From a virus: a stretch of 21,825 nucleotides of DNA. The translations under genes and the position numbers were made by a program. Under the pieces are notes generated by a model, which did not search any database, had not been told where the DNA came from, and saw only the letters and a program-made list of their open reading frames with translations. Below, piece after piece: positions 1 through 21,794 of the stretch; position 1 is the stretch's first letter; each line of letters opens with the position of its first letter. The stretch covers positions 1 to 21,825 of the IMG/VR virus record IMGVR_UViG_3300032047_001627. One strand, 5' to 3'.

Positions 1-135
1 CACTGTCTATCCATATCTATACATATACGTACATGAAGGGGGTACCCCAAGCGGGGGGTGGGGTGCTGTGCTCACGTGGCGGACATCAATTCGCGCAGGC
101 GCGCGCACGAACCACTCTTTCCGCGCGGGCACGTA

Positions 136-160
136 AAATATAGATCTCCGATCTATATTT
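136..160. repeat. Hairpin 1: perfect 11-bp stem, TCC loop
   Basis: AAATATAGATC (136-146) pairs without error with GATCTATATTT (150-160) around a 3-base loop TCC (147-149). Its loop-proximal part TATAGATC/GATCTATA is shared with hairpins 2 and 3. No T-tract follows, so it is not a typical intrinsic terminator. Confidence 0.9.
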
Positions 161-187
161 CTGCTGGCTGGCTGGCTGGGGTTGGAC

Positions 188-233
188 TGGAATATATATT
201 TATAGATCTACGATCTATAAATAATATATTCCA
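188..233. repeat. Hairpin 2: 21-bp stem, one bulge, TAC loop
   Basis: Positions 188-208 pair with 212-233 around the 3-base loop TAC (209-211). The stem has 21 pairs and one extra base (A224). It shares the TATAGATC/GATCTATA core with hairpins 1 and 3 but has its own AT-rich outer arms, and these are still complementary to each other. Confidence 0.9.
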
Positions 234-235
234 AC

Positions 236-284
236 TTGTTGGTTGTTTATTATAGATCTCCGATCTATAATAAACAACCAACAA
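236..284. repeat. Hairpin 3: perfect 23-bp stem, TCC loop
   Basis: Positions 236-258 and 262-284 are perfectly complementary over 23 bp, with loop TCC at 259-261. The outer arm (TTGTTGGTTG) differs completely from hairpins 1 and 2, while the inner 8 bp match theirs. A perfect 23-bp stem with a 3-base loop is very unlikely by chance. Confidence 0.95.
243..271 (+). promoter_or_regulatory. Possible promoter inside hairpin 3
   Basis: TATAAT at 266-271 matches the bacterial -10 consensus exactly. TTGTTT at 243-248 lies 17 bases upstream and matches 3 of 6 bases of the -35 box. Transcription would start near 278 and read through hairpins 4 and 5 into the first gene. Because the site is inside a palindrome, the same -10 hexamer also occurs on the other strand. 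The AT-rich palindrome could produce this match by chance. Confidence 0.25.
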
Positions 285-293
285 AGGTTTCTG

Positions 294-334
294 AATATTG
301 TATTTCATAATCGGAGATTATGAAATACAATATT
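294..334. repeat. Hairpin 4: perfect 19-bp stem, GGA loop
   Basis: Positions 294-312 pair perfectly with 316-334 around loop GGA (313-315). The stem sequence is unrelated to hairpins 1-3 except for AT-rich content and a loop that is the complement of TCC read backwards. Spacer to the next hairpin is 7 bases. Confidence 0.93.
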
Positions 335-341
335 TGAGATC

Positions 342-403
342 TTGGGGGCTCTTTTTATCTGAACCCCTCACGAAGTGAGGGTTCAGATAAAAAGAGACCC
401 CAA
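342..403. repeat. Hairpin 5: 28-bp stem, GAA loop
   Basis: Positions 342-371 pair with 375-403 around loop GAA (372-374). There are 28 pairs, one bulged C (364) and one G/A mismatch (348/397). It ends 14 bases before the Shine-Dalgarno sequence of the first gene. No T-run follows the stem, so a role as an mRNA 5' structure, an RNase III site or a DNA signal is at least as likely as termination. Confidence 0.93.
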
Positions 404-429
404 CCAGAAAATTTGCTAAGGAGGCAAAA

Positions 430-774
430 ATGGAAACACAAACCGCGCTACTTAAGACCCTAAAGGGTCTTAAGAGCCAAATCGAAGCCCTTGAGGCGCA
501 AGTTGCTGCTACGCAGCAACCAGCAGGGAAATCCCCTGCGACTGAAGTTCCTACGGAACTTCCGAAACTGACAAAAGCGGAACGCCGCGAACGTAATCGC
601 TCGCAGTACCGCCAAGTCCTCGGGTTCCGTGGCGAAGCCACGAAACAGGCTAAAGCAGGGGATCTCAAGAAAGCCCGTGCGGCGATTAGCAAGGCTAATC
701 GGATAGCAACCGAGCGTGGTTGGACCAGCGAGATCTCTCGCAACAACCAACACCTAAAGGTGTTGGTTGGTTAG
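430..774 (+). CDS. Unknown 114-residue basic protein with coiled-coil N-terminus
   Basis: I do not recognise this protein. The start is well supported: AAGGAGG at 418-424 lies 5 bases before the ATG. Residues 5-28 are heptad-like with Leu, Ile and Val spacing, which suggests a short coiled coil. Residues 29-48 are Pro/Thr/Glu-rich and probably flexible. The rest is rich in Lys and Arg, with a KAERRERNR stretch and many Ala/Lys residues, so binding of nucleic acid is plausible but unproven. It is the first gene after the hairpin leader. Its own DNA is unusual: about half of the coding sequence falls into perfect short inverted repeats with 3- or 4-base loops (listed separately). An antisense open frame (318-746) appears to be a by-product of these repeats. 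Confidence 0.7.
   Translation: METQTALLKTLKGLKSQIEALEAQVAATQQPAGKSPATEVPTELPKLTKAERRERNRSQYRQVLGFRGEATKQAKAGDLKKARAAISKANRIATERGWTSEISRNNQHLKVLVG
451..769. repeat. Series of perfect short hairpins inside the first coding sequence
   Basis: Within the gene at 430-774 these stems can be read: 451-460/465-474 (10 bp, loop TAAA); 502-509/513-520 (8 bp, TAC); 523-528/534-539 (6 bp, AAATC); 544-551/555-562 (8 bp, TAC); 577-580/585-588 (4 bp); 628-633/637-642 (6 bp, GAA, extendable past one bulge); 683-690/694-701 (8 bp, AAG); 728-733/736-741 (6 bp, only 2 bases between); 744-754/759-769 (11 bp, TAAA). The last stem ends just before the stop codon. Loop sizes match those of the leader hairpins, so the series looks like a continuation of the same array. 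Confidence 0.88.
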
Positions 775-784
775 TCCCCTCGTG

Positions 785-812
785 TGAGATCCCCCCTTCG
801 GGGGGGATCTCA
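785..812 (+). terminator. 12-bp GC-rich stem with TTCG tetraloop
   Basis: TGAGATCCCCCC (785-796) pairs perfectly with 801-812 around TTCG, the very stable C(UUCG)G tetraloop when transcribed. It lies 11 bases after the stop codon of the first gene. No T-tract follows, so it would be a weak intrinsic terminator. It may instead protect the 3' end of the first mRNA or pause RNA polymerase. Confidence 0.55.
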
Positions 813-817
813 TCGTT

Positions 818-865
818 CACGTTACACGTATGTGTAGCGTGTGCGATGAGATAAATTATCTCGTC
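818..865. repeat. Two adjacent hairpins before the second gene
   Basis: Positions 818-827 pair with 832-841 (10 bp, one G-T wobble, loop GTAT). Positions 845-853 pair with 857-865 (9 bp, one wobble, 3-base loop AAT). They directly follow the TTCG hairpin and end 19 bases before the Shine-Dalgarno AAGGAG (884-889) of the next gene. They are the last members of the continuous hairpin array. Confidence 0.75.
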
Positions 866-3779: not shown

Positions 3780-3898
3780 GTTACGGTCAAGCGGTCATAG
3801 GACTGCTATTGGTGTCCGCCTTGATATGGGCGTTCAGATATATCAAAAATAAAACATATCAACTTAGTTCGCGGAAGGAGGAGAATAACCGTGAATGA
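3776..3898 (+). CDS. 40-residue single-pass membrane protein
   Basis: The ATG overlaps the preceding stop (ATGA) and the frame overlaps the next gene by 8 bases, so it lies exactly between two coupled neighbours. Residues 5-20 are hydrophobic (QAVIGLLLVSALIWAF), followed by a basic and polar tail (RYIKNK, then RKEENNRE). This predicts one membrane span with a cytoplasmic C-terminus. It is the second such tiny membrane gene in the early region (the other is at 2242-2340). The tight overlaps on both sides argue that it is real despite its size. Function unknown. Confidence 0.62.
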   Translation: MSYGQAVIGLLLVSALIWAFRYIKNKTYQLSSRKEENNRE

Positions 3899-4940
3899 AA
3901 GAAACCAGATAGATAACGTCAATGGGCAGATGTGGCTAGTTGGGAGTAAAAACTCTCAGCATGGCGGCATCGTCGTTGGCGATAAGCAATCAGTCGTAGA
4001 CGTTGCTAGAGAAGCGGGTGCAGACTTTGAAGTCCAGTACACGCCATCTGGCTATGTGTATGAAACTGAAGAGGGGAAGAGAGCCTTTCGTATCCCTAGA
4101 TACGAGGACGGCGTTTACCAGAATGAACCGCTAGATGTTTACATCGTGCGTAACGATACTGGTGACATCGTGGGTAGTCACTCAGGGAAATACCCTAAGA
4201 GAGATGGCTACAGGCACGTATTTAATACGTTAGAAGATCTGTTCCCACAGACATGTGAAAGTATTACCGTCTATGGTAATGGTGAGCAAGTGGTTGTAGA
4301 GCAATGTTTAGGTGAGCCTAAAGACTTAGGCATTAGCCTTCGTGGTCATGGCTTCGGAACAGAAACCTTACAACCATACGTTTATACTCGTATGAGTTTG
4401 AATGGTAAATGGCGCACAGAGATCATTCCAATGCACAAACGTGCAGCATGTGAAAACATGCTTGGATCTGATGCATCTGTTGTAGCAGTAAGAGCGACAC
4501 GCAACCATGACAGCATACTTTCTATGCGTTCAGAGATACTGAACGAAACCATTAAAGATGGTGAGCGTTTAGCGATCAAGGCACAAGAGATGTCAGAAAC
4601 CCTTATGACACATAAGGAGTTCAGTGACATGATTAACAACCTGTTGCCCTACCCTAAAGATCCAGACACCTCGCAACGTGCTTTGAATAAGATTTCAAAT
4701 ACACGTGGCGCTGTACTGAATCGCTGGGCAGAGGAACTTGGTATGGACCCGCTTACAAGGGGTACACACTGGGTGGCTTGGAATTGTTTTCAAGGTGCAG
4801 AACAGCACAGGGTAAACCATAATTTCAATAACAGGGTAAAAGATCAAGAGCGTGGCTTGTCTAAGATGTTAGACCAGACCACACCTCTTGCGGATCAGGC
4901 AGAAGAATACCTAAGGACATTAACTTCTGCTACTATATAG
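3891..4940 (+). CDS. DUF932-like phage/plasmid protein
   Basis: The start is a GTG with AAGGAGG (3875-3881) about 9 bases upstream, overlapping the small membrane gene. At 349 residues it is in the usual size range of the DUF932 group (phage/plasmid-like TIGR03299 proteins). Supporting features are an N-terminal beta-rich half with a short KRDGYRHVFNT segment near the position where these proteins carry it, a central MHKRAACENMLGSD followed by AVRATRNHDSILSMRSEIL (the usual C-x-N-x-L and R-x-T-x-N pattern), and a helical C-terminal third with WNCFQGAEQH. Such proteins are common on phages and plasmids next to replication genes; their biochemical role is unknown. It is by far the largest gene of the early block. 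Confidence 0.68.
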   Translation: MNERNQIDNVNGQMWLVGSKNSQHGGIVVGDKQSVVDVAREAGADFEVQYTPSGYVYETEEGKRAFRIPRYEDGVYQNEPLDVYIVRNDTGDIVGSHSGKYPKRDGYRHVFNTLEDLFPQTCESITVYGNGEQVVVEQCLGEPKDLGISLRGHGFGTETLQPYVYTRMSLNGKWRTEIIPMHKRAACENMLGSDASVVAVRATRNHDSILSMRSEILNETIKDGERLAIKAQEMSETLMTHKEFSDMINNLLPYPKDPDTSQRALNKISNTRGAVLNRWAEELGMDPLTRGTHWVAWNCFQGAEQHRVNHNFNNRVKDQERGLSKMLDQTTPLADQAEEYLRTLTSATI

Positions 4941-5988: not shown

Positions 5989-6083
5989 ACTTTCGTAGCA
6001 CGAAAGTCACATTGCGTTGATAGGATCAAATGGTACTTAGTTCCCGCCCCCACTTAAACAGAGTGGGGGCGGTTACTTAGTAC
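5989..6083 (+). repeat. Two hairpins before the replication operon
   Basis: A small hairpin joins 5989-5995 with 6001-6007 (7 bp, loop TAGCA). A larger one joins 6044-6054 with 6062-6072 (11 bp, GC-rich, 7-base loop) and continues outward to 6033/6083 with nine more pairs and three mismatches. The outer arms also contain the direct repeat TACTTAGT (6034-6041 and 6074-6081). The element ends 13 bases before the first replication gene. It could end early transcription or bind a regulator; there is no T-tract after the stem. Confidence 0.7.
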
Positions 6084-11832: not shown

Positions 11833-12551
11833 GTTACCTTTCCTACTACACCATCTTGCTTGATAGCGAAATTTTTCTGAAACTTTTTAACAGCATTCCT
11901 AGTATTACGGCCAAATACACCGTCTACGGATAAATTTAACCTTAGACGAGTATTTAGCCGCTCTTGTAGCATCGTCACGTATTTCCCCTTTGACCGCATT
12001 CTTAGCGGTTTCTTTGCGAGAGAATCTCCGATTGCTAATACATACTTAGTGATAGCGTCCCAATCTATCTCACTAGGGTTTCCCTCATCAACACCCATTC
12101 CCCCTTTTACCCACGCAGCAAGATTATCGCTAGGGCAATAGGTGGCTTTAAAGTCTCTATGACACTTGATGTATAAATGCTCACCATACTTTTTCCGTGT
12201 AGCCTCAACTACAACCAGTATGGCTTCCTTAGCCTTATCAGTAATTGCGTCACCATCTCCGATGTAAGATATAGCAATAGTATTATGGTTGTGCCCCTTC
12301 GTGGCCCCTCCAACAGTCCACCCGCGACCCTCAAATATTTGCCCATCTTCAGATATTAGCCAGTTGTACGCGATAGTTCTCCAACCACGACCTTCCACAT
12401 GGTACCTATCATGCCCCTGAATCTGTTTATAGGGGTCTTTAGGGCTACCAGTAGTGTGATGGAACACGATGCCCTTCATACGCCTTCTAAACGCCACTAA
12501 AGGCTTTCCAGTATCTATAGCGCCCCACTCTTCTCTGCTTATATATTTCAT
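11808..12551 (-). CDS. Endolysin: amidase with peptidoglycan-binding domain
   Basis: The 247-residue protein has an N-terminal Amidase_2/PGRP domain (about 1-150). The signatures are FHHTTGSP with zinc ligand H31, AYNWLISEDG with Y62, and IKCHRDFKATYCPSD with H131 and C139. The C-terminal 65 residues form a PG_binding_1 domain (KYVTMLQERLNTRL, then VDGVFGRNTRNAVKKFQ, then DGVVGKVTWKHL). Such N-acetylmuramoyl-L-alanine amidases cut the link between sugar and peptide in the cell wall to release phage. There is no signal peptide, so export through a holin is expected; the small membrane gene after it fits that. The start overlaps the giant gene by four bases (ATGA). Confidence 0.92.
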   Translation of the reverse strand: MKYISREEWGAIDTGKPLVAFRRRMKGIVFHHTTGSPKDPYKQIQGHDRYHVEGRGWRTIAYNWLISEDGQIFEGRGWTVGGATKGHNHNTIAISYIGDGDAITDKAKEAILVVVEATRKKYGEHLYIKCHRDFKATYCPSDNLAAWVKGGMGVDEGNPSEIDWDAITKYVLAIGDSLAKKPLRMRSKGKYVTMLQERLNTRLRLNLSVDGVFGRNTRNAVKKFQKNFAIKQDGVVGKVTWKHLWTT

Positions 12552-15500
12552 CTTAACCCTTCTATCTCTGAATCTATTCTATACATGTCTCTAAGGTCTT
12601 GTAAATCTCTTCTTTGCTCTTGAAGCCTGTAACGCCTCTGACGTGCTTGCTCTTCAAGAGAGTTGTGCCTTAAACCGATCCCAAGCAACCAACTCATTAC
12701 AGAAGCAAGCCTATTTTCCTGACCTCTTTTAGTGTCTGGCATAACCCTACTTAAAGATTGCAAAGGCGGGAACAAACTCCTCATACTATTAAGGTACGAA
12801 TCTTTCATCACCCAATTTCCATCTGGCGTTTTACGTGCAATGTTATCTCCAGTTATCAGAGAAATAGGTTGCATCAAAAGGTCATTGTTGAATGGAAAAG
12901 GAACCTGTTTAAAGTCGCCCTTGTAACTATAACCTTGGAAAATATTCCTATTCATGGTCATCTCAATAGGCGCTTTTATCAGTGGTGACATCATGTTTCC
13001 TATAGGTTGCAAAGCCGCACCCACACGCTCTAAAGGACTCATATCTGGTTGAGTCATAGGGTTTATTGTTTCCATAAGGACCCTAGGAGGCAAGTCAAGA
13101 GTAAGCCAGCCATGTTGGCCATCAGCGCCAAACATGTTTACAGGGATACCGCCCCCAGTTTGTATCCACTCAGGCACAGAATCAAGATCCTGCATGTCTC
13201 CTTGAAGAGAATCTTCCATTCTGTTCATTGCATATACGTATCTATGCATTCTGGCAGGGTTCCTAAATGACTGTTCTAAAACACGTGGAATCGCAAAACG
13301 AGTCCACGTGTAAAACGGTATGACTTTTTTAACAACTTTACGCTCAAACGCAGACAGGTCTTGGTAGTTGAATTGGAACTTCCAAACCTTTTCCATACCT
13401 GTAGAAGCAGTACCGCCTTTATTAACTATGTCGTCAAACATTAGGGTTCCACGCAGTATGTCCTCTATTTGACCTACGTTAAATTTTTGCGCCTTTTCTA
13501 AGAGGATAAACTGAGAAGAAGCAGGGTTTGCTCTCTGTAAGTTTATATCTTTCCCTCCGACACGGACAACTCCCCTGCCTGCGTCTGCAACACGAAACTC
13601 TGTTCCAGCCTGTCCATGTCCAGCCGCACCAGTGGAGTCAATAATTCTTGCAACCTCAACTTCGTAAGGGTCAGTGTGTTTAACTAAATGGTTTAACCAT
13701 TTCTGCTTCTTAGGACCCAAAGAACCTTTACGTATCAGTTCATTCTGTAAACGGACGACTGTACGCGCTGTAACATACTTACCATAAGAGGTAACGTTCA
13801 CCCCTGCAAGGTAGTTCATAAATACACCACCTTGAAGGTTACGTGAATAAAATCCTGGGGACAATATCGCGTAACCCTTCCATACGTTCTGTACTTTATC
13901 GTAATACTCTAAGAACTTACTTCCACCACCATAGTTGCGTTCCATGTCGGTTAAAGAATCTACAAGACTTCTAGGCCCTTGTGACTGCAGCCCAATAGCC
14001 CTAAACCCTTGAATCATTACACGATCAATGGCCTCACCAGTGGCCTTCCTGTGGGCTAAATCTTTAAATACAAACTTGTTGCCCCTGATAGCGTTAAGAT
14101 CTTCTTTAGTGTTAGCCGCAACAATCTTTGTCGCTAAATCAGCATCTTCTTTAACCATTATCTGTATAGCAGACTCAACGTCCTTATATGCTTGAAATAA
14201 CTCCTCACCAGATCCCTTAAAGTCTGGACTCATCTTATTCAACGCCTCAACGGCTTTACGCATTTCCCCATTAAGTAACTCTAATTCAGCAAGTTCCTCA
14301 ACAGCAATCCCCTTATCGGTCCTTAAATTATAGGCGTCCACTTGACTCTGTAAAGTCCACTCATCTGCTCTTTGCTTTACAAACCAATCTTGAGCAAGTT
14401 GTTCTCGTATCTCAGCGGCCTCATCTACCGTCCGTAATAGGTCGTCGTATAAGTCATCTTGACTGCGCTGTGCCCTCTTTAAAATCTCTATAGACTGACG
14501 AACCTGATTAGCATTAGTTCCCAGATCACTTGCCGAGAGTAAATATTGGTTATTCACACGCAAAGGAGTAGATTCCTTTCCGAGGTTCATAGACATCATA
14601 AACCTTATAGTGTCGTCCATAGCCTTCTCTTCCCAAGCAGGCAAAATAGACTTAGTGAAAGATTCACCAGTAGAAACGCTTCTCACTTTACCAGCAAGAG
14701 GGTTAGTTAAATTGACACTAAAGTTGTAGGGGCGAGCGTATGCGTCAGGATTCCTTGCTAAATTATTAGCCCAACCTGTACCAACATAACCTTCTCGCCC
14801 TAAACCTGTATGGTAAGACTCCCAAAGTCTTGCCAAAAGGTGTGCTTCACGATCCATAGGATCTTCCGCTATTGACCTGCTGGTCCTCTTCAAAAAGGCA
14901 TCAGCGTCATCAGCGTGACCCCAAGTAGCCGACTTAGCCGAACGTGTAGATCTGTACTGTATATGTAGACCAGCCATGAAATCATTCACTACATCTCTGG
15001 CATCTCTCTGAGCGAGGGAATAGGCTCTGTTTTGTCCGCCTAGTGTTCGTAGGCCGTTAAAGTTTTTAACTTCAAAATCAAAACCAGCGGGTTTAGCAAG
15101 TTCACGTAGGTAGGCTTCCCTGTCAGCGAAATCATCTACAAGTCTACTGACCTCATCTAATGTCATTGTTTGCCTCTTGTACATTACCCATTCAAGAATG
15201 CTTTGATAAGCGTCATTGTCTACGGAACCTAGTTCAAATTTTGCCCTTAAGTGTGGGGTTTGAAAAACCTTCTCCACAACAGACATCGTTTCAACAGAAT
15301 CCCTCACTGCATGATTAACATATTTAATCATGTCAGGTCCACCATATTTACTATCTTGCATGGAACCCTTACCACCACGAAGCGCTCTATTCACAATTCC
15401 AGAATCAGCAATATGAGAACGCATAGGATACATGTACCATTCGCCTAGATTCAAAGCGGCGTCATCATATGCTTCAAAAATATTTTTAGCACTTAATTTC

Positions 15501-18500
15501 AAGGGAGTCATGTAGGCAAGAATCTCAGACCTTAATTGAGGTCCAGCCTTACCCAACATATCTAAAGACATCAAAGCCTGAACGCCCCTCAAATGATCCA
15601 TGCCTGTCCAAGAATCTATAGCACCATAAGGGCTTGTGAAAAATTCTGTTGCTATCTGATCTAAAATCTCAGCCTGTTGAACAGGAGTTAAAGCAGGGTC
15701 AAGAGACTTAGACAGAAGATGATGCGCTTCTTGATTCATTCCATAAAGTTTTATACTCGCCAAATCATTAGGAAGGGCAATCTCTACATCTGCCGTAGGT
15801 ACATTCTGAGCCTTCTGCCAAGCCATAGGGTGTAACGCAAAGTCACTACTTGCCTCGTCTATCCAAGGCATCAAATTAGACGTAGACCTAGGAGCACCAA
15901 GATACACATTACCAACAGGGGTTCCCCACACAGGGTTTGAATGAAATCCAGCAGTTAAAGGTACACCAAACATCTCTGTTTGCTGCGTAGGCGAAAGAGC
16001 CTCAAAGTTTATCGGCATTCCTGTAGATGAAACATCTCTAGGGTTTTGAATAGCGGGAAGAACTCTTGCTCTTCCGTTATACAACATTGGATCAAACAAG
16101 GCATCATCTACCAAGCCTTGATGCCCTTTAAGACCCCTAATAACATAGATAAGGGTTCCGTCTTTGGAAGCCTTTTCTATGGCATCAGGAGCCATACCAA
16201 GATTGAATGCGGCACGCATAGGTAACTGCTCTTCAGGTATGTAAGTTCCACCAAAATTCTCAACAAGCGCCCTAGATCTTGCCTCTAACCACGTCGTGAA
16301 ATAGGCACGTTGCTCTATGGTCGCATCAGGTAAGTAAATTTCAACAAATCTAGCCCACCCACCATGTGAAGCGCGTACATCATTGATCTTACGTATTTGA
16401 GAACGAACTAAATCTTCTACATTAGTTCCTTCCGAACGAAGCATAGGTTGCGCCACACCTGACAAACGTTTCTGACTGTTCAAACCAGCAGTAAAGCCTG
16501 CCGCCTCTTCACCAGCATCATCACCGAACAATAAATAATTTACTTCCTGCGGTCTTGACGCATCGTAATCACCCCTTAAGGCTCTAACTGTTCCACCCAA
16601 CTCTTTCCTAGGAAGCCCATACTCAAAAGGAGTAACACCAGCATCAATTATCTCATCATTAACGCCTAAGAAATCAAACGTTTCCCCTTGATTCACACGT
16701 ACGACAGCGCCGTCACCCTCACGTATCACAATATTAGAGAAGTCCTCTCCTGCAGCGCCCCAGTTGCCTGTTAAAAGATCACCAAGTAATCCTTTCTGAT
16801 ATTCAACTGCCACAGGATTCAACGGAAGCAGATCGCTTCGCGCTCCTTCCGCTATGATCTCAGGGTTTATTAACCTAGGTTCCCCATTCATGCTCATAAC
16901 AATCGTGTCATTTATCTGTGCTTGATTAAGAGATGTGCCTTCAACCCACTCTTTGATAACAAAAACATTTCCTAAATCATCTGTAGAGGTGTAAGAAATA
17001 GGTGCTTCAGCGTCAAAAGCCCTATATATGCGAGAAGAGAGAACGTCAGCGTTCGCTCTTTGAGCAGTAGGGTACTGCTTTACAAAATATCTCTTACCAT
17101 TAGGGCCAACCATTTGTTGCCCACGTTGTGAACCGTATTCAAAAATTTCTCCCACAACAGACAGTTCCTGTATTGTGGGTTGCTGAAATATTCTATGGTC
17201 AGCATCTAAAGCAGCAGCAACACTGTGCTTAAACTTCGTCATCTGGACAATATCACCTATTGTCAAAACCATTGGTTCTTCGTTGATAGAGGTCCCAAGA
17301 ACTGCTTGCTGGATCTCCGTACTTGCAGCAGGGTTATCAGCCAACTCTGCCTGCTTGAGCATTATACGTTGGTTAGCCTCCTCGGCGTAACTGGCTAAAA
17401 ATCTATCTAAATCGCCTACATCTTCTATAACGTTCCTGATAGGTGGATCTAATGGGATACTATTTCTTGCTTGCACAGTGAACATCTCTGACCAACTCTG
17501 GTTGCCCTCTATGACAACACCAAACTCGTTGCCAAACCTGCGTTTCAACTGTGGAGTCATGTCCAACATGCTTGTAAAAAGATCATCTAAGACCTTCGTA
17601 ACGGCTTTTTCTTGGTTGGTTATTAATTCTAAAACCTTAAGGACCTGATCGGGACTAGCCGCTCTGGCTATCCCATCAGCCCCAACTAAAAGATCTTTAT
17701 AGTTGTTAAGTAGTGCATACTCTAAAATTCCGTCATCTTGTAAATTCTTTAAAATAACGTCATAAGTTTCTAGAACGTCCTTCATCATCATTATGTCTAG
17801 GTCGTCTAAGCCTCTTGCGGACATAGATTCAAACATTCTTTCAGGGTCAAAATCATTCGCCACATTCTTCCAGAAAGTCATACCATCTGAAATTTGCTCT
17901 ATACTGCCGTGCAAATAAATCTGATTAAAAGCCTCCCTGTATTCCATAGCCGCATTTTTGGCGGCTTGTATGCTTCCAAAAGCACTAGTTAATTGGTCCT
18001 CTATGAATCTTGTATTCTTGACAGCATCTTCTACCTCCATGTATTTCGTGTAAAACAAGCCGTCCCTGAAATGTTTATCAGGAGTTCCTAGAACTGCATC
18101 ATTCAACCTAGTCTTAAGTGCATCTACTTCACCCTGTAATTGCTTTGCTCTCTGTACAGACCTGCCTGCGGCTGCTCTCACCACACCTTCCGCTTCGTCT
18201 ATTTGTAGTTGCCTTGCCGCTATGTCTGCCTCTATCTGAGATATTTCCATTTCCTTCGCTATGATTGCTTGCTCCCTGTCCATAACGAACTCATTAACTT
18301 CTTCAGCAAATTTCACATTGTTTAAATACAATTCATCAATTTGCCTGATCTGTGCCTCTAACTCAACAATTTCAGCACGTATAATATCTTTGGCTGCATC
18401 ATCAGCATGTACCCCTTGAGATAATTTAACCTCAAGACGTCCTATCAGTTCTTGCCTTTCCTTAAGGTTGTCGTATATGCGTCTAGAAGCAGCACGCTCC

Positions 18501-21352
18501 ACAGTGGTAGGAACACCATTCTTATACAACCATCTATGCTGAAGTACCCCAGCACCCTGCAACTGGCTTTCTAACCATACCTGACCTGTTCTATGTGCAA
18601 GCATGTCTGCGTATGCTGAAAAGGACTTGGATATGCTTTCTTCAAACATATGGTGCCCTACTTTAGCCTCGTCCATAATGGAGTTAATTTGGGCGACAAT
18701 GCTTTGTCCTTCAACAAAGTCTTTGCCTCCGAAACTCATGCGTGCAGGAGTATTCGCAGTATCCATAGCAGATTCAAAAGCAACGCGAACATTGAAAGGA
18801 AGGTCTGCGTCCGCCCAAGGTGCGTCCCAGTTGTAACCATCTGGTAAATCAAATTTCCCTTGTTGCTCTGCGTTTAAATTATTCCACCAATCCTTCGCAC
18901 GGTTCTTATACTCATTAGGAGTTAAATACTTACGCCCATGTTCAGTGCCTGAGCGCTCCATATCAGGAGCGCCTCTACCCTGCCTAAAATTAAACTTGCG
19001 AGCATTTCTTAACTCTTGTGCAAATTCTGGCGTTATAGAACGGTGACCAAAGTCATCTACAAAGTTTAAAAACTGTACACCAGACTGTGCTTCCGCCATC
19101 ATGTGTGCTTCATTTAGTGCCGAACGTAAACCATCTTTTAAATGCATTAAACCTAAATCATCTAAAAGTTTGTCCGCCTCTAAGTCACCTTCTAGTGCTC
19201 GGAAAAACGTTACCTCCGCATCTGCGCGAGAGAGGGAACCATCAGCGCCAGAGATTGCTTCATCTACGGCCAATCCAAGTCTTTGCCTAAATGCAGTTCC
19301 AAGGTACTTTTCCATTTCCCCGCTTTGCAGGTATCTTTGCAACATGACCCTAGCGTGCTGTTGTCCCCAAGGATTCTTTACGTCCTTAACTTTCATCTTA
19401 AGTAATTTTTTTGTACCCCCTACAAAACCAGTTGCTCTTCTCCATGCAGATCCTGGGATATCTGCAAAAATCTTATGGAACTGCATAGGTATAAGCCTTA
19501 TTAGTTCGTCTGCCCTGCTGTTAGGTAGACCTGTTGCAAACTTGAAACCTGTTTGATGCTGTATAGGGGTTTTACCTACCCTGTATCTAACATTATTTAA
19601 AGTTTTGCGACCCCACTCACCAGTCATGGGTATTTTCATACCCCATTGAGTACCAAACGGGGTTGAACCCGCTAGATCCTGAGCAGAAACTAAAGGTATA
19701 TGCTGTTTCCCAACGTTTATATTGTCAGGTAAAAATCTGGTGAGAATCCCGCTACGAGGAGTTCTCACCTGAGAAATCAAACCCTCTGCTTCAATTCTCC
19801 AAATATCATCTTGAGCCGCTCTAGCAGCATCATCTAAAGAATTGTATGCCTCAGTACCGAAAATCTTTTTCTGGCCTTCTTGGTAACTACGAATCCAACC
19901 TGCCCTATGTTGAGCAGCAGTCATACCGTTTCTATCAAGCCCAAACCTATGCATGTATGTGGCTACAACACGTGCTGTATCCGCAGACAGGGCGTTAATA
20001 CCCTTCTCCACTACCCTTCCGCCGTCCATAATTTTTACAATATCTGTAAAGAGGTCATCTGGACCAGCGCTCGCACGCACAGTGCTTGTTACATCATCAA
20101 AAGAGAAAAGAACACGCTTGCCAGTGGCATCAACTGCATTAAGGAAAATGTTGTCGGTTTGAGCAACACCCATGTTGGCTAACCGCTGAGTCCCCCTAGC
20201 AGTTACATTAATGCCTCCTTGTGTAGCCAAGTCCTCAACTACCTCTTCAAAAATTTCCCTTACGCGACCAGCGGCCTGCTTTACAGAGGCCTCTGATGTT
20301 ATATCAATACCTTCCTCTACTAGTCTCCCCATTACTCCATCAGCCAGTTCTCTGGTGCTTCTCTCAATAGATTCTTCGGCTAATTCTTGCCCTGACCTTC
20401 TAGCCACACCCCTGAAAACATTCTCGCCCATTTCCTCAATAATGCTTCGCGTAACAGTCATTGCAACAGTCTCGCCGCTTGCACCTATACCGCTTCTTAA
20501 AGCCTTCGCTACACCCTGAGTTACTCCGAAGCCACCAAGCCAATTTATAGGGTCTAAAATCAAATCAGGGGGTAATGCTAACGCCCCGCTAGTAGAAGGC
20601 CCTATAGACCAACCAGTGCCAAGCGCATTATCCCAATCAAACCAATGTTTGGTACCCCAATGGCTTTCTGGGTTTTGCAACCAGTTAGCGTCCTCAAACA
20701 AGCGACCAAAAGTATAAACTTGATAAAAGTTTTCTGGATCTAATTCTTCAACACTTGTCGTAATCGGATTCTCACCTTGAACAATGCTTTCCCAAGGTAA
20801 AGCGCGACCAAGAACAACAGTGTTCAAAAACATTACAGGATTCAAAGTAGTCAGATATTTTGTCCTGTCGTAAAAATCTGTAAGTTCTTCTTTTCCAGCC
20901 TTGAAATAATTGCTAAAAGAATCTAAACCTTCACCAGAGGCAAGATCAGAACCTAATCTCCACAGATTAGTAATGCCTCCGTCAATGAGTTTGGCTGTAG
21001 CGGCCACAGCAGAGAGCGGTCTACCTAATGTCACTAAAGCGCGACCAATTAGACCACCTATGCGGCTTTGCCAAAAGCCGCCTTCGTTTTGTTGATCTTG
21101 AAAATCTTGCCTTGCCTGAGTATCTACCCAAGGAACAGTGTCATAATTATCTAACGAACCTCTAATTTTAGAAGGATCGTAACGATTAATTACTTGATCT
21201 ATGTTAGTTAAATTGTTTTCGCCTACACCAAAAGTATCTCTTAAGATATCTGTGGTGGATCGTTGATTCCCAGAAGGTCTTTCAACTTCAGGCGGCTTTG
21301 AAAAACTAGGAGGTTTTACTGTATCCAGAAGTTGTTGTCTGTCAATCGCCAT
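12548..21352 (-). CDS. Giant polyvalent virion-associated protein (2934 residues)
   Basis: I chose the ATG at 21352, one base after the preceding stop; a TTG at 21379 would add nine residues. Residue numbers count from this ATG. The protein has no signal peptide. A kinase-like domain near residues 1400-1570 shows K1425 in YFVKQY, a hinge near VIKEWVEG, then GNWGAAGEDFSNIVI and RVNQGETF. Two long coiled coils lie near 954-1085 and 2282-2422. The C-terminal part holds GYAILSPGFYSRNLQGG (about 2490-2507) and VIPFYTWTRFAIPRVLEQ (about 2675-2692), phrases I recognise from giant phage proteins of the large polyvalent type. These are thought to be packed in the virion and injected. I looked for T7/N4-type RNA polymerase motifs and found none. 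Confidence 0.75.
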   Translation of the reverse strand: MAIDRQQLLDTVKPPSFSKPPEVERPSGNQRSTTDILRDTFGVGENNLTNIDQVINRYDPSKIRGSLDNYDTVPWVDTQARQDFQDQQNEGGFWQSRIGGLIGRALVTLGRPLSAVAATAKLIDGGITNLWRLGSDLASGEGLDSFSNYFKAGKEELTDFYDRTKYLTTLNPVMFLNTVVLGRALPWESIVQGENPITTSVEELDPENFYQVYTFGRLFEDANWLQNPESHWGTKHWFDWDNALGTGWSIGPSTSGALALPPDLILDPINWLGGFGVTQGVAKALRSGIGASGETVAMTVTRSIIEEMGENVFRGVARRSGQELAEESIERSTRELADGVMGRLVEEGIDITSEASVKQAAGRVREIFEEVVEDLATQGGINVTARGTQRLANMGVAQTDNIFLNAVDATGKRVLFSFDDVTSTVRASAGPDDLFTDIVKIMDGGRVVEKGINALSADTARVVATYMHRFGLDRNGMTAAQHRAGWIRSYQEGQKKIFGTEAYNSLDDAARAAQDDIWRIEAEGLISQVRTPRSGILTRFLPDNINVGKQHIPLVSAQDLAGSTPFGTQWGMKIPMTGEWGRKTLNNVRYRVGKTPIQHQTGFKFATGLPNSRADELIRLIPMQFHKIFADIPGSAWRRATGFVGGTKKLLKMKVKDVKNPWGQQHARVMLQRYLQSGEMEKYLGTAFRQRLGLAVDEAISGADGSLSRADAEVTFFRALEGDLEADKLLDDLGLMHLKDGLRSALNEAHMMAEAQSGVQFLNFVDDFGHRSITPEFAQELRNARKFNFRQGRGAPDMERSGTEHGRKYLTPNEYKNRAKDWWNNLNAEQQGKFDLPDGYNWDAPWADADLPFNVRVAFESAMDTANTPARMSFGGKDFVEGQSIVAQINSIMDEAKVGHHMFEESISKSFSAYADMLAHRTGQVWLESQLQGAGVLQHRWLYKNGVPTTVERAASRRIYDNLKERQELIGRLEVKLSQGVHADDAAKDIIRAEIVELEAQIRQIDELYLNNVKFAEEVNEFVMDREQAIIAKEMEISQIEADIAARQLQIDEAEGVVRAAAGRSVQRAKQLQGEVDALKTRLNDAVLGTPDKHFRDGLFYTKYMEVEDAVKNTRFIEDQLTSAFGSIQAAKNAAMEYREAFNQIYLHGSIEQISDGMTFWKNVANDFDPERMFESMSARGLDDLDIMMMKDVLETYDVILKNLQDDGILEYALLNNYKDLLVGADGIARAASPDQVLKVLELITNQEKAVTKVLDDLFTSMLDMTPQLKRRFGNEFGVVIEGNQSWSEMFTVQARNSIPLDPPIRNVIEDVGDLDRFLASYAEEANQRIMLKQAELADNPAASTEIQQAVLGTSINEEPMVLTIGDIVQMTKFKHSVAAALDADHRIFQQPTIQELSVVGEIFEYGSQRGQQMVGPNGKRYFVKQYPTAQRANADVLSSRIYRAFDAEAPISYTSTDDLGNVFVIKEWVEGTSLNQAQINDTIVMSMNGEPRLINPEIIAEGARSDLLPLNPVAVEYQKGLLGDLLTGNWGAAGEDFSNIVIREGDGAVVRVNQGETFDFLGVNDEIIDAGVTPFEYGLPRKELGGTVRALRGDYDASRPQEVNYLLFGDDAGEEAAGFTAGLNSQKRLSGVAQPMLRSEGTNVEDLVRSQIRKINDVRASHGGWARFVEIYLPDATIEQRAYFTTWLEARSRALVENFGGTYIPEEQLPMRAAFNLGMAPDAIEKASKDGTLIYVIRGLKGHQGLVDDALFDPMLYNGRARVLPAIQNPRDVSSTGMPINFEALSPTQQTEMFGVPLTAGFHSNPVWGTPVGNVYLGAPRSTSNLMPWIDEASSDFALHPMAWQKAQNVPTADVEIALPNDLASIKLYGMNQEAHHLLSKSLDPALTPVQQAEILDQIATEFFTSPYGAIDSWTGMDHLRGVQALMSLDMLGKAGPQLRSEILAYMTPLKLSAKNIFEAYDDAALNLGEWYMYPMRSHIADSGIVNRALRGGKGSMQDSKYGGPDMIKYVNHAVRDSVETMSVVEKVFQTPHLRAKFELGSVDNDAYQSILEWVMYKRQTMTLDEVSRLVDDFADREAYLRELAKPAGFDFEVKNFNGLRTLGGQNRAYSLAQRDARDVVNDFMAGLHIQYRSTRSAKSATWGHADDADAFLKRTSRSIAEDPMDREAHLLARLWESYHTGLGREGYVGTGWANNLARNPDAYARPYNFSVNLTNPLAGKVRSVSTGESFTKSILPAWEEKAMDDTIRFMMSMNLGKESTPLRVNNQYLLSASDLGTNANQVRQSIEILKRAQRSQDDLYDDLLRTVDEAAEIREQLAQDWFVKQRADEWTLQSQVDAYNLRTDKGIAVEELAELELLNGEMRKAVEALNKMSPDFKGSGEELFQAYKDVESAIQIMVKEDADLATKIVAANTKEDLNAIRGNKFVFKDLAHRKATGEAIDRVMIQGFRAIGLQSQGPRSLVDSLTDMERNYGGGSKFLEYYDKVQNVWKGYAILSPGFYSRNLQGGVFMNYLAGVNVTSYGKYVTARTVVRLQNELIRKGSLGPKKQKWLNHLVKHTDPYEVEVARIIDSTGAAGHGQAGTEFRVADAGRGVVRVGGKDINLQRANPASSQFILLEKAQKFNVGQIEDILRGTLMFDDIVNKGGTASTGMEKVWKFQFNYQDLSAFERKVVKKVIPFYTWTRFAIPRVLEQSFRNPARMHRYVYAMNRMEDSLQGDMQDLDSVPEWIQTGGGIPVNMFGADGQHGWLTLDLPPRVLMETINPMTQPDMSPLERVGAALQPIGNMMSPLIKAPIEMTMNRNIFQGYSYKGDFKQVPFPFNNDLLMQPISLITGDNIARKTPDGNWVMKDSYLNSMRSLFPPLQSLSRVMPDTKRGQENRLASVMSWLLGIGLRHNSLEEQARQRRYRLQEQRRDLQDLRDMYRIDSEIEGLR

Positions 21353-21353
21353 G

Positions 21354-21794
21354 TCATTGTCTAAATTGTGGACCAGCAAGTATGCCTAGATCCGCTGCAG
21401 ATACTGCAGGGCCAGTCTCCTGCCCTCTCATAATATAGTCATACGTATCATAACTAGTGTACGGATCTCCGTGCCTGTTAGGACTCTTGTAAACTGTACC
21501 TTCAAATGGTGGTTGTTCTTGAGATCTAATATCTACTTCATCTACCTGAGTATCTGTAAGAGTGTGATAAACATTCCATGTTGTTGCAACAGCGGTTACT
21601 TCAGACCATTCGTCAGTCTTGCCAACATCTTCACCATAAGAATTTACATCTAAGTATGTATTTTCAATTTGGAGAGCGTTAGCGGTATAAATTGCCATTT
21701 GTTCATCAATGGCTGCTTCGTCATAGAACCAAAATTCTTCTCCGTTAGGTGCCTGCCACCAAGCCCCCTGTTGGTCATCTGTAAAACCAGCCAT
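21354..21794 (-). CDS. Unknown acidic 146-residue late protein, start uncertain
   Basis: The product starts MAGFTDDQQGAWWQAPNGEE and is rich in Asp, Glu, Tyr and Trp, with no membrane segment and no recognised family. The composition resembles small virion accessory proteins, but that is impression only. No stop separates the ATG from the window edge (21825) in this frame, so the true start may be further right. Another frame has a stop at 21805-21807, which may be the end of an upstream gene and would favour the ATG at 21794. The gene ends one base before the giant gene's ATG, so both are probably translated together. Confidence 0.62.
   Translation of the reverse strand: MAGFTDDQQGAWWQAPNGEEFWFYDEAAIDEQMAIYTANALQIENTYLDVNSYGEDVGKTDEWSEVTAVATTWNVYHTLTDTQVDEVDIRSQEQPPFEGTVYKSPNRHGDPYTSYDTYDYIMRGQETGPAVSAADLGILAGPQFRQ

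Follow-up and report, generated by a model that had tools for sequence, protein, structure and literature searches.

Can one stretch of DNA encode a conserved protein and at the same time be built from hairpins? The question is raised by g1, the first gene of a 21.8-kb stretch of viral DNA (21,825 nt; IMG/VR virus record IMGVR_UViG_3300032047_001627, positions 1 to 21,825), which we refer to as the window. A preliminary description of this DNA had pictured the g1 coding sequence (CDS) as composed of perfect hairpins. We find that the observation is genuine and larger than first noted: it is a recurrent, DNA-type hairpin array within a protein-coding gene. Eight hairpins with a stem of at least 5 bp lie inside window g1 (Table 1), and the last does end just before the stop codon, as described. 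The proportion of bases said to lie in inverted repeats, about half, was slightly generous, because the hairpins span 153 of 345 bases (44%) and stem bases alone number 124 (36%). With stems of at least 6 bp and loops of 3 to 5 bases, 7 hairpins were counted, compared with a mean of 0.62 and a maximum of 4 among 1000 synonymous shuffles that keep the protein and codons and approximately preserve codon-junction dinucleotides. The minimum free energy of g1 has a z score of −6.8 relative to codon-only shuffles.

Table 1. Features of the first-gene region, in window coordinates.
Feature	Position	Strand	Description
CACTGTC	1-7	+	precedes the TATCTATACATA block in the window
TATCTATACATA block	14..25	+	putative promoter-like or protein site; upstream of the array in most relatives
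Leader hairpin 1	136..160	strandless	11 bp, loop TCC (GGA on − strand)
Leader hairpin 2	188..233	strandless	loop TAC (GTA on − strand); stem interrupted by one extra A
Leader hairpin 3	236..284	strandless	23 bp perfect, loop TCC
Leader hairpin 4	294..334	strandless	19 bp perfect, loop GGA
Leader hairpin 5	342..403	strandless	~29 bp, one mismatch, apex CAC-GAA-GTG
Ribosome-binding site AAGGAGG of g1	418..424	+	outside the hairpins; assigned from sequence
g1	430..774	+	345-base gene for a small basic protein of 114 aa, conserved family; first gene divergent from terminase
CDS hairpin	451..474	strandless	10 bp, loop TAAA
CDS hairpin	502..520	strandless	8 bp, loop TAC
CDS hairpin	523..539	strandless	6 bp, loop AAATC
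CDS hairpin	544..562	strandless	8 bp, loop TAC
CDS hairpin	624..646	strandless	loop GAA; 6 bp perfect at 628-642, one mismatch when extended
CDS hairpin	683..701	strandless	8 bp, loop AAG
CDS hairpin	728..741	strandless	5 bp, loop ATCT
CDS hairpin	744..769	strandless	11 bp, loop TAAA; ends 2 bases before the stop codon (772-774)
Post-gene hairpin	785..812	strandless	12 bp, loop TTCG; same position as terminator-like hairpins after g1 in relatives
Two further imperfect post-gene hairpins	807-852, 845-865 (807..865)	strandless	imperfect stems

The hairpins of the leader (136-403) and those after the gene (785-865) are real as well. In the window phage the array runs from 136 to 865 as the single unit that had been proposed; among relatives, however, leader and CDS arrays occur independently, with a leader array only in L169 and essentially a CDS array only in L170, L179 and L185. 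The counterpart of leader hairpin 2 in a near-identical contig (L114:117-161) is a perfect 21-bp stem without the base inserted in the window, and other relatives also have a long hairpin just before g1, at the position of leader hairpin 5. The 5′ arms of the leader hairpins are C-rich and G-poor (0.36 vs 0.11), and the inter-hairpin spacers of the window (161-191) and of the leaders of L142, L144, L169 and L153 share TGGCTGGCTGGC. An Rfam search gave no match at the gathering threshold.

The same near-identical contig, L114, places the array in its genome. It matches window positions 1-349 at 99.7% identity in reverse orientation, then runs on leftward into small and large terminase genes. 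We therefore rejected a genome end at the window start; the array occupies the divergent region that separates the rightward early genes from terminase. Rightward genes of the window include those for a Cas4-like exonuclease, a DnaB-like helicase, an AEP primase and a RusA-like resolvase, as assigned by protein matches, and many relatives keep the same gene order. Most first-gene regions have the conserved blocks GCATACAG, CGCACTGTC and TATCTATACATA ahead of the leader; TATCTATACATA, with at most two substitutions, is found in most of 30 such regions, as a rule 6 nt downstream of CGCACTGTC. Between the small terminase gene and this promoter-like block, the divergent region of most relatives also holds a hairpin with a CCCCA-like loop framed by GGTACTAAGTA direct repeats. 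Similar hairpins framed by TACTTAGTA occur elsewhere (window ~6030-6081). The array-bearing phages belong to a large family, uncultured and probably marine. A look for the host turned up only two MAG contigs with a related terminase, one in an Acidimicrobiaceae bin and one in a Euryarchaeota bin, and the array is in neither.

The g1 protein is predicted to form a long N-terminal helix followed by a C-terminal three-helix bundle (mean pLDDT 90). A search with this predicted structure returned no significant match, the best being weakly bS20-like (E 0.17). As single queries against IMG/VR, window g1 and g3 found no relatives; iterated HMM searches over all loci yielded 45 unique g1 homologs. In at least 29 IMG/VR phages the gene that comes first in the direction divergent from the small terminase gene is a g1 homolog, whose start codon lies 470-1150 nt away from the terminase gene. 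These 29 first genes contain 158 hairpins, compared with 29.5 expected from synonymous shuffles, and 15-16 of them carry a CDS array beyond the shuffles, with 6-14 hairpins each (among them L134, L144, L153, L141, L154, L166, L170, L179, L185, L193, L201, L174 and L137). Array-bearing proteins are only ~17-33% identical to window g1, and the stems are unrelated. The first gene of L121 (same contig as L164), for example, has 11-12 hairpins in 360 bases, none with stems related to the window's; a ribosome-binding site near-identical to that of window g1 lies upstream of L121:1666, and the second copy of g1, 1.3 kb downstream, is not hairpin-built. Eight later paralogs together hold 8 hairpins (2.8 expected).

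Both checks suggested with the first description came out in its favor: shuffled sequences do not reproduce the stems, and among relatives stems are kept through double changes and unrelated stems recur in the first gene of ~15 other phages. As a qualification, about half of the first-gene homologs and seven of the eight later paralogs show no significant excess. The structure is therefore not needed for the protein. On a terminase tree, phages with and without the array are scattered and ~8 changes are needed, which means that gain, loss or exchange of the array has happened repeatedly. The terminase sides of L185 and L190 match at 98% identity, yet the two phages have different g1 alleles, with hairpins in that of L185 and none in that of L190. 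Between L185 and both L190 and L178, g1 alleles and right flank differ, with an apparent recombination junction at the array locus. That all this stems from chimeric or fold-back reads during assembly or library preparation is scarcely credible: some contigs do end in or near the array, and the window and L114 differ there by one base, but the arrays encode a conserved protein and hairpin positions are common to contigs from different samples (L141/L154/L166, L193/L201 and L131/L132).

Although stems are unrelated, their tops are not arbitrary. Note that several arrays come from related phages, which bears on the following loop and mismatch counts: GNA or TNC makes up 69 of 86 CDS-array triloops (80%) and 44 of 358 (12%) in hairpins of the family's other early CDSs (Fisher test, P = 2 × 10−34); a C-G pair closes 103 of 124 CDS-array hairpins (83%) compared with 315 of 1003 (31%) elsewhere in early CDSs (P = 8 × 10−29); GNA and TNC occur 58:66 over 18 phages, with no strand preference (P = 0.53); and the 2943 array base pairs of these 18 phages include 22 mismatches, 5 of them A.C and just 1 G.U, a pair that is normally common in selected RNA stems. 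Each of the independent genomes (L121, L153, L134, L144, the window, L137, L174 and L179) has at least 60% GNA/TNC among its CDS triloops. The C-GNA-G hairpin is exceptionally stable, the most stable of DNA minihairpins. Strand-symmetric loops, near-absent G.U and C-G-closed GNA/TNC together favor DNA pairing on both strands over RNA folding. The sequence signature points to C-GNA-G minihairpins or cruciforms, and fits DNA better than the RNA structure implied when SHAPE and ribosome profiling were first proposed for this locus.

An RNA-level function nevertheless deserves consideration. The early transcript might be folded over its full length, as protection against nucleases or to control g1 translation or termination, with RNA hairpins as the object of selection. 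Such a role would predict what we see in the placement of the array, which spans from just past TATCTATACATA to a terminator-like hairpin (with a U-run in L121), between promoter-like block and terminator; this counts against a DNA-level reading. The last leader hairpin also pairs with the Shine-Dalgarno region in L134, L144 and L153, and early genes generally fold better than synonymous shuffles, more so in sense than in antisense. The array itself folds more strongly than such shuffles but lacks RNA-type covariation that includes G.U, and its loops are strand-symmetric with an orientation that flips freely, which a function of RNA loops would forbid. We regard an RNA role as unlikely, though it is a serious contender.

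The loop rule C-GNA-G is the same as that of the promoters used by the virion RNA polymerase of phage N4, and the array could in principle consist of promoters of that kind; the phage has both an early region and a late protein of 2943 aa. However, N4 has few such promoters, not a dozen per kilobase, and the array stems share no conserved bases. The 2943-aa protein, encoded leftward at window 12548-21379, has no above-threshold PHROG (0.01), Pfam or solved-structure (E ≤ 1) match and none of the RNA-polymerase motifs searched for. An N4-like virion RNA polymerase was thus sought and not found in this protein, in a phage genome that is only partly represented. We consider promoters of this type very improbable.

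Folding is also elevated elsewhere in these genomes. Early-gene z scores against synonymous shuffles, sense and antisense, are −2.15 and −1.40 in the window and −1.84 and −1.24 in relatives, compared with sense values of −0.16 to −0.45 in T7, HTVC010P and lambda. Nearly all early CDSs in the window and L006-L085 fold more stably than shuffles, with a mean z of about −2 per 240 nt. Short perfect hairpins are in 2.4- to 3-fold excess genome-wide in the family; the corresponding excess is 0.74 in T7, near 1 in HTVC010P and lambda, 2.0 in P-SSP7 and 2.4 in the distant relative MW202803. We rejected this genome-wide excess as the cause of the g1 array, because loop type differs and so does density, at 13.75 hairpins per kb in first genes and ~2.2 per kb elsewhere, about six-fold.

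Several hairpins outside the array are conspicuous in their own right. The DUF932 gene of the window (3891-4940) has 7 perfect short hairpins, compared with 1.2 expected from codon shuffles. Two intercistronic hairpins of 19-20 bp (1562-1603 and 2714-2755; CCATTATTC[C/T]GTCTCTCAA-TTTA-...) are identical save for one compensatory C-G to T-A change. Such long hairpins lie between early genes in many relatives, often with the apex TGAAC-GAA-GTGAA (possible tandem G.A). In L131:1-1000 and L132, other early genes are also rich in long perfect hairpins, such as ATGAATCATCAAGGG-aagt-CCCTTGATGATTCAT, and most of the loops there are not GNA.

How the stems change between close relatives bears on whether the array is selected. 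We observed 4 compensatory changes and no broken pairs between L193 and L201; 1 compensatory change, 1 double-broken pair and no single breaks between L154 and L141; and 8 compensatory compared with 7 single-broken pairs between L179 and L185, which share hairpin positions at 77% nucleotide identity. A loop is often the reverse complement of its counterpart in the relative (GAA/TTC, TAAA/TTTA and TTCA/TGAA). Polymerase template switching between short inverted repeats is known to homogenize the arms of such repeats within coding genes and to invert their spacers of 3-5 nt, among them TCC/GGA and TTC/GAA (PMC8604942). Because arm homogenization with spacer inversion is the published signature of this process, double changes alone cannot be read as selection.

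The array might have no function, with fold-back synthesis at minihairpins building, perfecting and flipping the repeats as a local mutational process to which this locus simply happens to be exposed. Its clustered double changes and loop flips look like the published ones (PMC8604942), the hairpin excess extends throughout the family genomes, and GNA loops may make the best fold-back primers. Yet family hairpins elsewhere have loops at chance level, only the first gene and its leader show the strong excess, positions persist between diverged phages such as L179 and L185, and a hairpin-free g1 allele exists in the same neighborhood (L190). Template switching can account for perfect arms and flipped loops, but does not readily explain where the array lies or which loops it has. 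We think a purely mutational origin rather unlikely.

The explanation that we favor, with a probability only just short of even, is a selected DNA-level hairpin array in a coding gene that would act as a platform for replication or early control. The leader and g1 CDS together present a dozen short perfect inverted repeats topped by 5′-C-(GNA)-G-3′ on one strand or the other, and these may extrude as hairpins or cruciforms when this divergent control region becomes single-stranded or is under negative supercoiling. Stem sequence would be free and foldability alone maintained; selection for foldability would hold the array at one gene, and template switching would repair arm mismatches and flip loops. 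The likeliest use is perhaps as a supercoil sink or landing platform beside terminase, serving replication or the control of early genes, and the phage-encoded DnaB-like helicase, AEP-type primase and RusA-type junction resolvase could act on hairpin DNA. We hold more tentatively, at somewhat below an even chance, the joint proposal that coding DNA doubles as such a functional hairpin or cruciform array of 6-14 C-GNA-G minihairpins with free stems, in which the redundancy of the code, and even the amino acids encoded at the loops (Pro-Ser or Pro-Lys), serve to keep the minihairpins.

The basis of this DNA-level explanation is observed: the array, its recurrence, position and loop rule, the near-absence of G.U and the arm-preserving double changes. 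Extrusion in vivo, selection and a biological role are our best guess from it. The same DNA seems both to code for a protein and to hold a repeated physical structure, and our best guess at the function is the hairpin platform. The initial idea that protein and structure are both selected is supported, but array-less homologs exist and template-switch mutation may itself keep arms perfect. That about half of the first-gene homologs are without a CDS array counts against the DNA-level explanation, as the array must be dispensable or replaceable; so does the presence of the array in only one of L185 and L190.

A functional array would be a new way for coding DNA to carry a physical signal, and its dozens of natural variants could be used to examine how cruciforms extrude in vivo. 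A purely mutational one would show protein sequence being written by template switching, in an extreme natural form. The choice between function and mutation is testable with close pairs of which one has the array and the other does not, such as L185 and L190. In open-access full text, we found no account of a coding gene composed of sequence-free, loop-constrained DNA hairpins that recur at one locus of a phage family.

Known systems resemble the g1 array in part. Palindromic elements of bacteria, such as REP and the RPE of Rickettsia, lie inside or next to genes and are copies of one repeat sequence, whereas the g1 array has different stems both within a genome and from one genome to another, with nothing but the apex rule in common. 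Some RNA viruses have genome-scale ordered RNA structure (GORS), in which coding sequence folds better than synonymous shuffles; the g1 array differs in belonging to a double-stranded DNA phage, in its perfect Watson-Crick stems almost without G.U and in its focus on one gene. The hairpin or cruciform at the target site of diversity-generating retroelements (DGRs) is similar in that structure matters, the stem is free, the loop is constrained (GRNA) and the site is at a phage gene, but it is one hairpin beside a variable repeat and a reverse transcriptase, whereas the g1 locus has many (PMC3240598). No reverse transcriptase was found among the scanned window proteins of this incomplete phage genome. 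Template-switched repeats share arm homogenization and 3-5 nt spacer inversion inside a CDS but are isolated events, unlike the 6-14 hairpins per gene that follow a shared loop rule at one locus in many phages (PMC8604942). The promoter hairpins of phage N4 are likewise DNA hairpins in an early control region with partly free stem sequence, and a C-G closing pair with a 5′G..A3′ loop is required for their extrusion and stability (PMC4496689). They differ in being few and short, with conserved bases, in serving as promoters for a virion polymerase, which was not found here, and in forming no CDS array (PMC4496689).
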